Origin: Halogranum amylolyticum
GTDB lineage: Archaea; Halobacteriota; Halobacteria; Halobacteriales; Haloferacaceae
Reading direction: 5' to 3'
DNA length: 64,000 nucleotides
NCBI RefSeq assembly: GCF_900110465.1
Contig: NZ_FODV01000010.1
Coordinates: 62,001-126,000 of the forward strand
Position numbers and translations under genes: made by a program. The notes under the pieces are model-generated. The model saw nothing but the letters and a program-made list of their open reading frames with translations, had not been told where the DNA came from and ran no database searches. Positions 3,732 through 33,515 of the stretch are shown in pieces (positions within the stretch are counted from its first letter, which is position 1; every line of letters starts with the position of its first letter).

Positions 3732-3937
3732 ACATCCACCTCCGGCGACGGTACCGCGTGTTCGCCCGTCACTTCGACGATGTGCTCCCGTCTCACGACA
3801 ATCATGTAATCCCAGCTCTCTTCGTCGAACGTGGTCCGCGCGTACGACTTCGCCAGCGTGTCGCTGTCCGCCTCGACACGGCCCACGTGGATGGTTTCGT
3901 CTCCCGCGTTGAGTCGGGCAAAGACTTCGTACTTCAT
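3728..3937 (-). CDS. paaB: Phenylacetyl-CoA epoxidase subunit PaaB
   Basis: A small 69 aa protein beginning MKYEVFARLNAGDETIHVG, with the later SYARTTFDEESWDYMIVVRREHIVEV region typical of PaaB. PaaB is a small structural subunit of the multicomponent epoxidase that helps the reductase dock. The longer open frame to 4108 is an artefact: ATG 3937 overlaps the preceding gene by 4 nt, like every other junction in this operon. The length is slightly shorter than the bacterial protein (about 95 aa). Confidence 0.88.
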   Translation of the reverse strand: MKYEVFARLNAGDETIHVGRVEADSDTLAKSYARTTFDEESWDYMIVVRREHIVEVTGEHAVPSPEVDV

Positions 3938-4308
3938 AGACTGATACCTGCTTCGCGCATCTTTTCGCGCACCTCGGGAGTGAGCATGTCTTTCGTCCAG
4001 ACCGGGTCCCAGACGACATCGACCGTCACGGAATCGACGCCCGACACCGGACGGAGGATACTCCTGATATCCGACTTGATGAACTCGTAGGCGGGACATC
4101 CCATACACGGGAACGTCATCTCGACAGTTACGTCGCCGTCGTCAACCTGCACGTCGTAGATCATTGCCATCTCCACGAGGCTGACGGGGATGTGCGGGTC
4201 GGGGATCTCGTCGATGAGGTCCCACAGTTCGCGCTCGAACGCTGTCGTCTCATCGTCGGGACCAAGTTCAACCGTACTGTTCTCGTTGGCAGCCGCGTTT
4301 ACACTCAT
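3934..4308 (-). CDS. paaD: PaaD N-terminal (MIP18/DUF59) protein
   Basis: A 124 aa protein of the MIP18/DUF59 fold. The early segment DEIPDPHIPVSLVEMAMIYDV and the conserved TFPCMGCPA cysteine motif are diagnostic, as is the later VDVVWDPVWTKDMLTPEVREKM. This family helps mature Fe or Fe-S proteins, and PaaD is needed for an active PaaABC complex. The normal C-terminal zinc ribbon is missing from this protein and is found as a separate gene at the end of the operon. It overlaps paaA and paaB by 4 nt each. Confidence 0.9.
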   Translation of the reverse strand: MSVNAAANENSTVELGPDDETTAFERELWDLIDEIPDPHIPVSLVEMAMIYDVQVDDGDVTVEMTFPCMGCPAYEFIKSDIRSILRPVSGVDSVTVDVVWDPVWTKDMLTPEVREKMREAGISL

Positions 4309-29578: not shown

Positions 29579-29935
29579 CTATTCAAGCCAGTTCCCACCC
29601 CAGTCGTCCAATGCGTCGAATACGGGACAGAGCGCACCGCCTTTGTTAGTCAGGGAATAGTAGCTCGCGACCGGTGATTCGAACTCCTTTCGGTTCTCGA
29701 CGAACCCTTGCTTCTCTAAGTCATCGAGCACACGGGAAAGCGTGTAGGAGCTCGCGCCCGTCGAGCGCTTGAGTTCGTTGAACCGCTTCTCGCCGTCGCG
29801 CAGGTCGTTGATAATGATGAGCTTCCACTTCGAACCAATCTCCTCAATCGATCCAACGACATTGCAAAGGTCCGCATTTCGCTGTTCAATCTCGGTGTCT
29901 TCGTTAGTATCGGCCGTTGGTGGTTGGGTTGCCAT
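29579..29935 (-). CDS. HxlR-family winged-helix transcriptional regulator
   Basis: A 118 aa regulator. The HxlR pattern is clear: a single Cys early (NADLCNVVGSIEEIGSKWKLII), then FNELKRSTGASSYTLSRVLDDLEKQGFVENR with the recognition helix, and a wing ending YYSLTNKG. ATG 29935 is preferred because it sits about 30 nt from a shared TATA box. It is divergent from the SDR-DoxX operon and very probably controls it. HxlR proteins often respond to electrophiles or redox stress. Confidence 0.88.
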   Translation of the reverse strand: MATQPPTADTNEDTEIEQRNADLCNVVGSIEEIGSKWKLIIINDLRDGEKRFNELKRSTGASSYTLSRVLDDLEKQGFVENRKEFESPVASYYSLTNKGGALCPVFDALDDWGGNWLE

Positions 29936-29994
29936 TACTTGGTTACACAATTATTGCCTGAGCTATATATGGGTTTGGGACCAAACTAGGTACT
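29936..29994. promoter_or_regulatory. Symmetric bidirectional promoter of hxlR and SDR genes
   Basis: One TATA element, AGCTATATAT (29961-29970), lies almost midway between the two divergent start codons: about 29 nt from GTG 29995 and about 31 nt from ATG 29935. Read on either strand it gives a TATA-like box at the right distance for a leaderless transcript. A 17-nt block (29932-29948) next to the hxlR start is repeated exactly at 31995-32011 and may be the operator. Confidence 0.65.
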
Positions 29995-30699
29995 GTGATA
30001 GAACTACAGAATGCGACGGTGCTCGTTACCGGCGCTACCGGTAACATGGGTCCATACATGACCGACCAGCTCGTCAACAGCGGTGCCGACGTTGTCGGTA
30101 CTTATGTCACTGAAGCGTCAAGAAAGGACATCGAGAACCGCGCTAAGCATGCCGACGCGGTGTCGTACTACCAAGTCGATCTGACCGACCAAGCAGCAGT
30201 CGAAGCCTTCGCCGAGATGGTTATCGACGACCACGGAGCGGTCGATCATATCGTCGGTCTCGCTGGGGGCTTCTCAATGGGCGGCGTCAGCGATACCGAC
30301 GGTGCGGCGTTCCAAGCCGCACTGAATCGTCACGCGGTGACGGCGTTCCTGACCGTCAAGGTCTTCGCGGATCACCTCAGTGAGCACAGCGGCGTCGTCC
30401 TGTTCAGTTCCGACCGCGCCATCGAGCCCGTCGGCGGTACGCTCGCGTACGACGTTGGCAAGGGCGCGGTTCGCACGTTGACTGAGTCGCTCGATGTCGA
30501 ACTTGAGGCTCGGATCAATGCGATTGCCCCATTCCTCATCGATGTGCCCGCTAACCGTGAGGCGATGCCCGATGCCGACTTCTCGGAGTGGACAGCTCCT
30601 GAAGCCATCGCCGACGAAGTGCTTCACCTGCTCTCGAACGAAGGTGTCACGGGACAGATCGTCCAGATGACTGGTGGCCAACCGGACGTGGGTGTGTAA
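29995..30699 (+). CDS. Short-chain dehydrogenase/reductase
   Basis: A 234 aa Rossmann-fold oxidoreductase. The cofactor motif is TGATGNMG (about 12-19), DLTD follows, and the active site has LFSSDRA and the Y-x-x-x-K pair in AYDVGKGA. GTG is the start, supported by the TATA box 29 nt upstream. Its stop overlaps the DoxX start (TAATG). SDR and DoxX under HxlR control is a recurring arrangement that suggests handling of a quinone-like or reactive carbonyl compound; the substrate is unknown. Confidence 0.88.
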   Translation: MIELQNATVLVTGATGNMGPYMTDQLVNSGADVVGTYVTEASRKDIENRAKHADAVSYYQVDLTDQAAVEAFAEMVIDDHGAVDHIVGLAGGFSMGGVSDTDGAAFQAALNRHAVTAFLTVKVFADHLSEHSGVVLFSSDRAIEPVGGTLAYDVGKGAVRTLTESLDVELEARINAIAPFLIDVPANREAMPDADFSEWTAPEAIADEVLHLLSNEGVTGQIVQMTGGQPDVGV

Positions 30700-31190
30700 T
30701 GTCACAGACCGCATCACGTCAACGGCTGCCCGCGACGTCTAGCCGGTGGAGTCTGGTATTCGTCCGCCTCGCGCTGGGGATTCCGATGCTTATCTCGGGC
30801 GTCGGCAAAGTCTTGGCAATCGGGCCGAAATCGATGGGCATCGCGGGATTCGCAGGCTTCCTCGCCAGCCTTGGCGTTCCACTTCCCACGATTGCTGCGT
30901 GGGGTGTCGGTCTCCTCGAACTCGTTGGCGGCATCTTGCTGCTGGTCGGCTTGGCTGTTCGAGTCACGAGTGCGTTGGTTGCCATCAACATGCTCGTCGC
31001 GACGGTTCTGGTTCACCTTCCGAACGGGTACCCGGCCACAAGCGGCGGTATCGAATTGACGCTTGCGCTGACCTTGGTCGCAGTCGCGCTCGTCGTGAGT
31101 GGCCCCGGTGCGCTCTCGGTTGAATACGCGCTTCGCGACCAGGATGACCTCTCCTCTGACTCTTCGCAGTCGAGAAGTACGGAGGGATAA
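30699..31190 (+). CDS. DoxX family membrane protein
   Basis: A 163 aa protein with four hydrophobic helices. The DoxX pattern is SLVFVRLALGIPMLISGVGKVL, then FAGFLASLGVPLPTIAAWGVGLLELVGGILLLVG, then AINMLVATVLVHLPNG. It is translated with the SDR (one-base overlap). DoxX-type proteins are related to quinone-linked oxidases and stress-response complexes. Role here unknown. Confidence 0.87.
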   Translation: MSQTASRQRLPATSSRWSLVFVRLALGIPMLISGVGKVLAIGPKSMGIAGFAGFLASLGVPLPTIAAWGVGLLELVGGILLLVGLAVRVTSALVAINMLVATVLVHLPNGYPATSGGIELTLALTLVAVALVVSGPGALSVEYALRDQDDLSSDSSQSRSTEG

Positions 31191-31269
31191 TCCACGCGGA
31201 GAACTAATCGAAAACTGGGGGTCGGCTGTCGGCAGTCTCCTCCTGGCCTGCAACGTTCGTTACCTCGTA

Positions 31270-31684
31270 CCTCCGGAGGGCTGAAGCCTTTCGAGAGCCG
31301 GAGTTGGCCGTGCTTATCGTCGTGTTTGATAGCTCCTTTTTCCACGTGACGGTGGAGCGCGGGTGATTGTCGCCGTGTTTCCGGTAGTCTGGTGGGTTGT
31401 TGCCGTCGTCGGAGTTGTACCAACCGGTGAACGCCTCAGCAAGTTCTTCGAGAACTCGCTGATTTGACTGCGAGTGCAGGTCACTGTAGCGTTCGTGGCC
31501 TTTTAACTCCAACTTCAGCCCGAATTCATCCGAGATTTCACTGTCGTCGTTTCACCGTTGTTGGATGTAGTAGCGTCTGACATTCCAACAGTTTGGGTAC
31601 AGAGAACCCGTACTGGTCAAGATTGCCACGAACCTGACTGTAGTTCGTGCTGCGTGCGACGGAGGTGCGAGCTGTCTCCAGCAT
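31270..31684 (-). pseudogene. tnpB: IS200/IS605-type tnpB relic
   Basis: The minus strand carries the N-terminal third of a haloarchaeal TnpB broken into three frames. MLETARTSVARSTNYSQV begins at 31684. A frameshift is followed by WNVRRYYIQQR and an in-frame TGA. Then come HERYSDLHSQSNQRVLEELAEAF and HPRSTVTWKK. Another shift at the T run 31337-31341 leads to IKHDDKHGQLRLSKGF, where homology ends. The RuvC nuclease part is gone. It is inserted between the two DoxX modules. Confidence 0.75.
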
Positions 31685-31695
31685 CGAACTATCTT

Positions 31696-31707
31696 ATAAC
31701 TAGTTAT
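31696..31707. promoter_or_regulatory. Perfect 12-bp palindrome
   Basis: ATAACTAGTTAT, just outside the start of the tnpB relic, in an AT-rich stretch. It may be an operator or part of the old element end. Confidence 0.35.
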
Positions 31708-31843
31708 GAGTAACTATGTATTAGAAGTGATATTCGACGTGGAATATCCAAACGGGCGATAGATCGGTGGAGTGTAGAATTGGATATCGGATTCATCCCG
31801 CACCTAAAGGCATGGAATTCTCCTTACTTTTTATAAACGCTGG

Positions 31844-31998
31844 GACTCGCGAAGCGACGCCCACACAAGTTGTTGAAGGTGATAACTGTCTCCCTCAGCG
31901 CTCTCCCCTCGACAGTTCAACGACATCGCAACAGTCTGTATTCAACCGTTCACTTTCAGAGACATTTCGAGATCTGTCTTCGGTGGTTAGGTCACCAT
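31844..31998 (-). pseudogene. HxlR-type regulator relic (second copy)
   Basis: The start codon region aligns base for base with the intact hxlR at 29935: the same 17-nt block, then ATG, but the fourth codon CAA has become TAA. Further matches follow (TGTCGTTG near the Cys-Asn-Val-Val region and a CATCATTATCAA-like block), with frameshifts between them. Homology fades by about 31844. It is the dead regulator of the duplicated module. Confidence 0.65.
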
Positions 31999-32060
31999 TA
32001 CTTGGTTACACTCGTGTTGCCAGAGCTATATATAGGTTTGAGAACAAACTAGGTATTGTA
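31999..32060. promoter_or_regulatory. Second copy of the bidirectional promoter
   Basis: It repeats the arrangement at 29936-29994: the 17-nt block (31995-32011), AGCTATATAT (32024-32033) and the CAAACTAGGTA segment before the start codon. The regulator side is dead, but the right side could still drive the DoxX and VOC genes. Confidence 0.6.
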
Positions 32061-32225
32061 ATGGAACTAAAGCGGTCAGCTGCACCCATAACTGGTGCAG
32101 CCGGAAACATTAGCCCGGAGATAGCGGATGAGTTCGTCGGCGAAGAGAGCCATGTACGTTCGCACGCAGACCTGGCGGGACAGACCGTGCAGACGGTCGG
32201 CGGCCAGCCGGAGGTGAAGAACTGA
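32061..32225 (+). pseudogene. SDR gene with internal deletion
   Basis: A 54-codon open frame that fuses the N-terminus of the SDR (PITGAAGNISPEIADEFV, compare the intact gene's LVTGATGNMGPYMTDQLV) directly to its last residues (GQTVQTVGGQPEV, compare GQIVQMTGGQPDV). About 185 codons between them have been lost, including the catalytic Tyr and Lys. The frame is intact and overlaps the DoxX start by one base (TGATG), so it may survive only as a translated leader for DoxX. Confidence 0.75.
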
Positions 32226-32644
32226 TGGCGCTGGAGACTACGGTCGGCGGCCTCGCCTTCCTGGTGGGCCGCGTCGTCTTCGGTGTCCTGCTTGGGTTCA
32301 TGGGACTCAATCACTTCACGGGCCTCGACGGGATGAGCGGCTACGCCGAAGCCAAAGGCATTCCCGCTCCGCGGCTCGCCGTCATCGTGTCCGGTCTCAT
32401 GCTCATCCTGGGCGGGCTTGCCATCGCGCTCGGTGTCTACCCACTGGTTGGTGCAGCGGTGATTGCGCTGTTCTTCCTCGGTGTTACGCCTGTCATGCAC
32501 GACTTCTGGACAGTCGATGACCCAGAGCAGCGACAGGCCGAGATGACGAACTTTCTAAAGAACGCCACGCTCTTCGGCGCGGCGCTCGTATTGGTCGCAA
32601 TTGGTGGAACTGCCTGGCCGTACGCGCTCAACATCAGCCTCTAG
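32225..32644 (+). CDS. DoxX-like membrane protein (second type)
   Basis: A 139 aa protein with four hydrophobic helices: RVVFGVLLGFMGLNHF, then LAVIVSGLMLILGGLAIALG, VIALFFLGVTPVMHDFW, and a final helix near ALVLVAIGGTAW. The GLNHF and HDFW motifs belong to a different DoxX subgroup from the protein at 30699, so this module is not a simple tandem copy of the first. It is followed 10 nt later by the VOC gene. Confidence 0.85.
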   Translation: MALETTVGGLAFLVGRVVFGVLLGFMGLNHFTGLDGMSGYAEAKGIPAPRLAVIVSGLMLILGGLAIALGVYPLVGAAVIALFFLGVTPVMHDFWTVDDPEQRQAEMTNFLKNATLFGAALVLVAIGGTAWPYALNISL

Positions 32645-32654
32645 AATCTCACCT

Positions 32655-33515
32655 ATGACTACCCAACCAAACCCAGACATGATTCCGCAAGAAACCCATA
32701 TCGGACAGACCGCACTCCGCGTCAACGATCTCGAAGAGATAACCAAATTCTACCGCGATGTCGTTGGACTCAGCGTACAACGTCGGTCCGACACCAGTTC
32801 CGTTCTGGGTGCCGGAGAAACCCCGCTGCTCGTCCTCGAGAATGATGAAGATGCGCTCGAACGACACCGTTCGGGAGCAGGACTCTTTCACAACGCCTTC
32901 AGAGTCCCCTCGCGTGAGGCGTTGGGCGACGCGTTAGCGCGCATTCGGGATCTCTGGCAGCTCGGCGGCGCATCCGACCATGGCGTCAGTGAGGCGCTGT
33001 ACCTGACTGATCCCGAAGGCAACGGTATCGAAATCTATCGTGACTACCCACGTGAAGACTGGCCTCGCCGCGACGACGGCCGCATCCGAATGGGTACGTA
33101 TCCCCTCGATCTTGACCCGGTTGAAGCTGCTGCCGCAGGTGACTCAGGACTTCCTGCTGGAACGAACATGGGGCACCTTCACCTCGAAATGTCCTCACTG
33201 GAGGCGTTCAGCGACTTCTACGTGGACACCCTCGGGTTTGAAGTCCAAACAGAAGCACCAGCCGCGCTCTTCGTCGGTGCTGGTGGCTACCACCACCATA
33301 TCGCTGCGAACACGTGGAACCACAGAACGGGTCCAATCAGTGGGCGCGGACTGTCGTGGTTCGAGGTGCTCGTCCCAGACGAAGAATCACTTGACGCCGT
33401 TCGGGGGCGTCTCATTGCCAGTGACATTCCGCTCACCGAGTCAGATGATGGTTTCGTGGTTCACGACCCCGATGAAATCGAGATTCGCATTCGAGTCGAC
33501 TCGTCGACTCAATAG
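32655..33515 (+). CDS. Two-domain VOC protein, catechol 2,3-dioxygenase-like
   Basis: A 286 aa protein with two vicinal-oxygen-chelate repeats. The first begins IGQTALRVNDLEEITKFYRDVVGL and ends GNGIEIYRDYP. The second begins MGHLHLEMSSLEAFSDFYVDTLGF and ends DEIEIRI. Candidate metal ligands are the histidines in THIGQ and GHLHL and the glutamate in EIYRD. This layout is found in CatE-type ring-cleaving dioxygenases and related lyases. ATG 32655 is used rather than the upstream frame inside DoxX. It probably acts with the DoxX module on aromatic compounds. Confidence 0.87.
   Translation: MTTQPNPDMIPQETHIGQTALRVNDLEEITKFYRDVVGLSVQRRSDTSSVLGAGETPLLVLENDEDALERHRSGAGLFHNAFRVPSREALGDALARIRDLWQLGGASDHGVSEALYLTDPEGNGIEIYRDYPREDWPRRDDGRIRMGTYPLDLDPVEAAAAGDSGLPAGTNMGHLHLEMSSLEAFSDFYVDTLGFEVQTEAPAALFVGAGGYHHHIAANTWNHRTGPISGRGLSWFEVLVPDEESLDAVRGRLIASDIPLTESDDGFVVHDPDEIEIRIRVDSSTQ

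Follow-up and report, generated by a model that had tools for sequence, protein, structure and literature searches.

Strict coupling of overlapping genes by termination-reinitiation is known in haloarchaea from Haloferax volcanii, where, according to Huber et al. (2019, PMC6728339), an early stop codon in the upstream ORF abolished translation of the downstream gene in 9/9 pairs, among them pairs that overlap by 1 or 4 nt and others with gaps of 1 nt and 10 nt; Shine-Dalgarno (SD) motifs did not work de novo. These pairs resemble the locus reported here with respect to the 1- or 4-nt overlap, the SD motif in the upstream ORF and a host with mostly leaderless mRNAs. The two differ in what is located upstream. 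In the H. volcanii pairs it is a working gene, whereas here a gene remnant or peptide-free leader takes that place, the body of the SDR gene having been lost repeatedly.

H. volcanii is also described as having uORFs, short ORFs of 15-31 aa that precede normal genes (PMC4983044). They are similar to the leaders discussed below but, unlike these, sit in 5'-UTRs of 150-250 nt. A DoxX gene is absent from Table 2 of that paper, and its uORF section contains neither an overlap rule nor a gene remnant. HxlR, DoxX and uORFs are also absent from the main text of a 2025 H. volcanii oxidative-stress profiling paper (PMC12482152). Open-access titles and abstract openings (subscription papers and preprints being outside this scope) contained no description of such a leader, and no open-access paper was found that joins DoxX with HxlR.

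With regard to regulation, the haloarchaeal module can be compared with the catDE operon of Bacillus subtilis, which, in contrast to the module, is not known to contain an SDR. We take CatD of B. subtilis to be a DoxX protein, and we know of no leader ORF associated with catDE. HxlR/DUF24 repressors likewise control the operon, in that CatR and YodB repress catDE, which includes a catechol dioxygenase (PMC6212828). By analogy, the haloarchaeal module operon is likely to serve redox- or electrophile-induced detoxification.

The window analysed is a stretch of 64,000 nt (G000:C32:62001-126000) from the haloarchaeal genome of Halogranum amylolyticum (5.19 Mb, 61 contigs; listed with 10.8% contamination). 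It appears to contain members of a haloarchaeal stress-module family in which hxlR is divergent from SDR-DoxX-VOC. Features are given in window coordinates:

29579-29935, minus strand: intact hxlR, 118 aa (PF01638, E 2e-20), candidate trans regulator of both promoters
29964-29987, plus strand: first promoter, TATA-like element (29964-29971) and dyad GGTTTGGGACCAAACT (29972-29987)
29995-30699, plus strand: intact SDR, 234 aa (PF13561/PF00106), GTG start; stop overlaps the DoxX-A start (TAATG)
30699-31190, plus strand: DoxX-A, 163 aa (PF07681, E 3e-18)
31862-31998, minus strand: second hxlR, decayed, its fourth codon being a stop (31989-31987)
32027-32050, plus strand: second promoter, TATATATA (32027-32034) and dyad GGTTTGAGAACAAACT (32035-32050), putative HxlR operator
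32061-32225, plus strand: SDR remnant, a leader ORF of 54 codons, of which the first ~26 and last ~15 are recognisable
32210-32217, plus strand: GGAGGTGA, SD-like, in the last codons of the remnant, 7 nt 5' of the DoxX ATG
32223-32227, plus strand: TGATG, remnant stop and DoxX-B start, 1-nt overlap
32225-32644, plus strand: DoxX-B, 139 aa (PF07681, E 2e-11)
32655-33515, plus strand: VOC protein, 286 aa (PF00903, E 2e-18)

The region 31862-32225 is a second copy of the hxlR/promoter/SDR start, with 71-76% identity to the first. Positions 29909-30075 and 31972-32138 form an ungapped repeat (71% over 167 nt), a further repeat segment lies inside hxlR (73% over 40 nt), and blastn of the two module starts yields 76% over 158 columns (E 2e-24). 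The duplication reported in the first-pass annotation is thus real, and similarity limited to a shared promoter motif is ruled out since the matches extend into both the hxlR and the SDR coding parts. Its description as a match almost base for base is appropriate for the promoter core, the most similar part (84% over 91 nt), and too strong for the rest of the repeat. Likewise, a second copy of the module is present only as far as hxlR, promoter and SDR are concerned. The DoxX and VOC behind them stem from a different branch of the module family: the DoxX of the first module has 163 aa, whereas in the second module a DoxX of 139 aa from another clade is followed by VOC. Plain tandem duplication of the first module was rejected because the DoxX clades differ in the tree; the DoxX-B and VOC of the second copy share 90-91% and 80-81% identity with modules from other genera, which also counts against it. 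Approximately 670 bases (31190-31860) separate the two modules and are unlike any module gene or other compared locus; the stretch 31190-31990 did not match module proteins and, among the loci compared, matches only itself. A look-alike tandem array is found in another genus (L081 and L016; G083:C1:571-575 kb), in which intact hxlR-SDR-DoxX-A and a fragment of VOC precede a decayed hxlR, an SDR remnant, DoxX-B and VOC. A common origin of the two arrays is unsupported, with their DoxX-B rows apart on the tree, where support is modest.

Decay of the second hxlR and SDR is clear. The second hxlR has its start codon at 31998-31996 (complement), followed by V, T and a stop at 31989-31987 (MVT*), so the earlier reading of a stop at codon 4 is correct, and another in-frame stop lies downstream. 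The SDR remnant retains 54 open codons, compared with 234 in the first module (29995-30699) or 233 in other copies; the earlier estimate of about 185 lost codons is to be replaced by 179-180, while its placement in frame and overlapping the DoxX start (TGATG) holds. The remnant TGA (32223-32225) gives its A to the DoxX ATG at 32225, an overlap as found in termination-reinitiation pairs, and GGAGGTGA lies inside the upstream ORF, where an SD motif is a frequent, not obligatory, trait of such pairs. DoxX-B and VOC are spaced by 10 nt. With 179-180 codons gone, the remnant does not have the complete Rossmann fold and catalytic residues of a classical SDR, and the 54-aa product showed no Pfam or NCBIfam match. 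Comparison of its codons 2-26 with 8 intact copies gave pN/pS values of 0.46-0.89, as against mostly 0.05-0.24 (one 0.46) in intact-intact SDR pairs. A functional small NAD-binding protein was rejected on both grounds, the missing domain match and the raised pN/pS. The first module is intact, as annotated, but its SDR begins with GTG at 29995. In this SDR (29995-30000), ATA replaces the ATG of most other copies and the GTG start is located one codon upstream; L025 looks alike.

In the consensus of promoter copies, TATATATA occupies positions 34-27 nt and the dyad positions 26-11 nt ahead of the leader ATG. With a complementarity of 0.87 (next 0.55, median 0.23), this dyad outranks all others in the region and, judged by its sequence, is a putative HxlR operator. 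At the pair -22/-15, SDR-type copies mostly have T-A and core copies mostly C-G; the two bases are complementary in 85/108 copies versus 45 if the columns were independent. The switch between T-A and C-G may be one old event. The distance between promoter and transcript start follows a spacing rule, and the promoter spacing suggests that the transcript starts at or near the leader ATG. Leaderless mRNAs make up 72% of the protein-coding transcripts of H. volcanii (PMC4983044).

The product of the intact hxlR contains the HxlR winged helix domain (PF01638, 72.7 bits, cut-off 20.8). Its nearest solved relatives are HypR and YodB, and its Cys24 aligns with Cys14 of HypR, which is a redox-sensing Cys according to PMC6943732. 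Cys24 would thus represent the N-terminal Cys characteristic of HxlR/DUF24 redox regulators (HypR, YodB, CatR). All three intact HxlR proteins of the genome contain the stretch RFNELKRSTGASSYTLSRVLDDLE, so one HxlR could serve all five promoters.

These five promoter copies comprise the two in the window, C15, C23 and C32:132097; no others were found in the genome up to E 1. The C15 copy (L006) has intact hxlR and SDR, a DoxX-B broken by an internal out-of-frame deletion (reverse complement 3858-4030) and an intact VOC, and C23 encodes hxlR-SDR-DoxX-A-VOC, all intact. At C32:132097, ~21 hxlR codons are left, and a 37-codon in-frame SDR remnant follows (C32:132222-132338; L007 3223-3339), with TAATG over the DoxX-A start, ~40 kb downstream of the window remnant on the same contig. 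One genome therefore contains two different in-frame SDR deletions (54- and 37-codon remnants).

The promoter DNA is present in 13/170 genomes of the family. At the level of the order, DoxX-A was found in 31/392 genomes and VOC in 239/392 (E <= 1e-40), many of the VOC rows being below 62% identity and the better ones having been examined. A promoter sequence profile, R1, built on 41 of 53 listed copies, matches 171/392 order genomes at E <= 1e-3. Regions were taken from the R1 list in two sets, 19 (plus one region from the own genome) and then 40, the latter being the listed matches with E 8e-8 to 2.5e-6 not fetched before, minus three ending before the start codon. R1 thereby reached a wider, widespread haloarchaeal promoter family (L143-L159, L244-L283), characterized by a promoter with the dyad GGTTCG..CGAACC, a mostly divergent hxlR and a leader ORF of ~15-33 codons, mostly 22-33, at the place of the SDR remnant, with the same stop/start overlap, followed by DoxX, NmrA-like or (once) nitroreductase-like genes, the latter two labels being a reading of the translations. 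The leader stop lies -1 to +7 nt from the next start in 37 of the set of 40; the other 3 are two direct fusions (L248, L254) and a 7-codon oddity (L249).

Altogether, 112 unique promoter copies include 20 full SDR genes, 82 shorter ORFs and 6 in-frame fusions to the downstream gene, the other 4 having been left out because the start codon is missing at the expected place. Three of the fusions (L037, L043, L084) run directly from the SDR start codons into DoxX, so that a single leaderless ORF with no separate leader results. Full SDR copies overlap the downstream start by 1 nt in 19/20 cases, the exception being C15 with its broken DoxX. SDR remnants also precede VOC (L038, 85 codons; L066, 97 codons) and a different SDR (L141, 40 codons), each with a 4-nt overlap. 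An 82-codon SDR piece on a Natrinema halophilum plasmid, annotated as hypothetical protein, has lost the 5' part of the SDR and overlaps DoxX by 1 nt. In L033 (G419), DoxX-B and VOC follow the last third of an SDR without a promoter match, and this copy was not counted as a leader. The laboratory species Haloferax mediterranei has, on pHME505, a leader of 27 codons with an SD motif and TAATG in front of DoxX (L284 1337-1420); the stretch examined shows no annotated hxlR next to it.

Within the order-level survey, a large SDR deletion is combined with a surviving SDR 3' end before DoxX in seven copies (the window copy, L022, L016, L035, L054, L065 and L025), and 7/7 are in frame to the SDR's own stop. 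Frame refers here to the retained 3' end in the SDR's own frame, the number of missing bases modulo 3 being uninformative as it is zero for any open frame. Six of these remnants show the 1-nt overlap with ATG; L065 has ATC instead. Two near-full SDR copies before DoxX, L034 and L020, contain small frameshifts, where either coupling is broken or a read error is hidden. On the DoxX tree, the remnant label requires 6 changes (bootstrap 5-7), at least 3 of them forced by well-supported branches; the remnant group includes L078, whose 24-codon leader is no longer SDR-like.

Of the 82 shorter ORFs, 64 have a stop codon that overlaps the downstream-frame start by 1 or 4 nt, and 75 have it between -4 and +16 nt of that start. 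Shifting the frame one base on left no overlaps and two bases on left 3, the second control being weak because 68/82 are then in the next gene's own frame. For 78 short leaders (the 82 minus L034, L020 and two without usable start), the 64 overlaps compare with 10.4 (SD 2.4) obtained with shuffled leader interiors, where the nearest start codon was picked on the data and kept unchanged for the shuffles, a choice somewhat favourable to the data. For most rows with DoxX downstream, the start coincides with the first aligned residue. Before VOC the arrangement is looser (11/17 leaders), and among core leaders, which are not SDR-like, 45/53 overlap by 1 or 4 nt. An SD match of at least 5 nt precedes the start in 44/53 core leaders versus 13% when shuffled, in 4/10 SDR-derived leaders and in 10/19 full SDR genes.

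The leaders drift unequally along their length. For 12 leaders of a single genus, each 22 codons long and compared in pairs that are not independent, pS is 0.023 in the four codons after ATG, 0.029 in the last four and 0.384 in the middle, where pN/pS is 0.72; DoxX of the same genomes has a pN/pS of 0.18. The leader end encodes E-V (GAGGTG).

We hypothesize that the remnant is a translated cis device for DoxX, combining a leaderless start, an SD motif and a stop/start overlap, with HxlR acting in trans, and assign this reading a probability of about 0.75. With its own regulator dead and the SDR cut by deletion to a short leader ORF, the module would most likely be controlled in trans through the retained dyad by an intact HxlR, encoded either in the first module or by one of the two intact copies elsewhere. 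The mRNA would begin at or a few bases from the remnant ATG. After reading 54 codons, ribosomes would terminate at TGA and re-initiate at the DoxX ATG that overlaps it, aided by GGAGGTGA, and selection would act on the two ends and the reading frame, not on the peptide. Should the strict coupling of H. volcanii apply at this locus, DoxX and VOC would be silenced by an SDR deletion that shifts the frame, and what would persist are remnants that stay in frame, fusions and short leaders. All three outcomes were seen in the survey, the exceptions being the frameshifted L034 and L020 and the ATC of L065. The SD match in only 4/10 SDR-derived leaders, the looser arrangement before VOC and the listed contamination of the genome also speak against the reading. 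It had been proposed initially that the remnant may be kept to couple DoxX translation, and this is supported by the recurrent in-frame remnants, the overlap statistics, the synonymous freezing and the coupling in H. volcanii.

Considering that the adjoining hxlR is plainly dead, that the peptide drifts, that L034 and L020 are frameshifted and that the C15 copy has lost its DoxX frame, the remnant might also be a pseudogene without a role, in frame by chance, with DoxX expressed from its own promoter or not made. This is unlikely in view of the in-frame recurrence in 7/7 large deletions with an SDR 3' end, an overlap far above the shuffled expectation, the near absence of synonymous change at either end of related leaders and the conserved promoter. 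Frame would further be uninformative on selection if an in-frame repeat within the SDR made in-frame deletions common. An imperfect repeat of this kind, VTDQLV/VTGQIV, exists: in 3/5 intact copies checked (L009, L026, L028), the coding stretches (V/M)TD(Q/S)LV and V(T/R)GQIV are 588 nt apart, a multiple of 3. The L022 and L016 deletions break there, and their frame needs no selection since a break at the repeat is itself in frame. The break points of the window remnant, L035, L054, L065 and L025 lie elsewhere, and the same overlap in core leaders that are not SDR-like also argues against such a deletion bias, which we regard as quite improbable.

The wide distribution of the leaders, and lengths that vary little within the core family (mostly 22-27 codons), would be compatible with a regulatory leader peptide, a short product that senses something or stalls the ribosome (attenuation). 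A conserved peptide is the criterion for such an attenuator, and the leader peptides differ widely, their middle being near neutral. Only the first codons and the terminal E-V are common to leaders, and remnants of 35-97 codons, whose middles are unrelated, would serve the same purpose, which renders a leader peptide highly improbable.

Extending the cis device reading to the wider family, we suggest, at slightly better than even odds, that haloarchaea possess a conserved and exchangeable start cassette consisting of an HxlR-type operator, a leaderless start and a peptide-independent mini-cistron. Such a cassette would pass ribosomes to any stress gene located behind it, be it DoxX, VOC, NmrA-like, nitroreductase or another SDR, and a full first gene could repeatedly wear down to the mini-cistron because loss of frame would silence the operon. 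The natural deletion variants from several lineages bear on whether downstream genes of haloarchaeal operons have an independent translation start, and make testable how much gene loss an operon tolerates while still working. The cassette would also explain short hypothetical stubs before DoxX genes, as on the Natrinema halophilum plasmid, and such stubs should stay in place when operons are annotated or moved.
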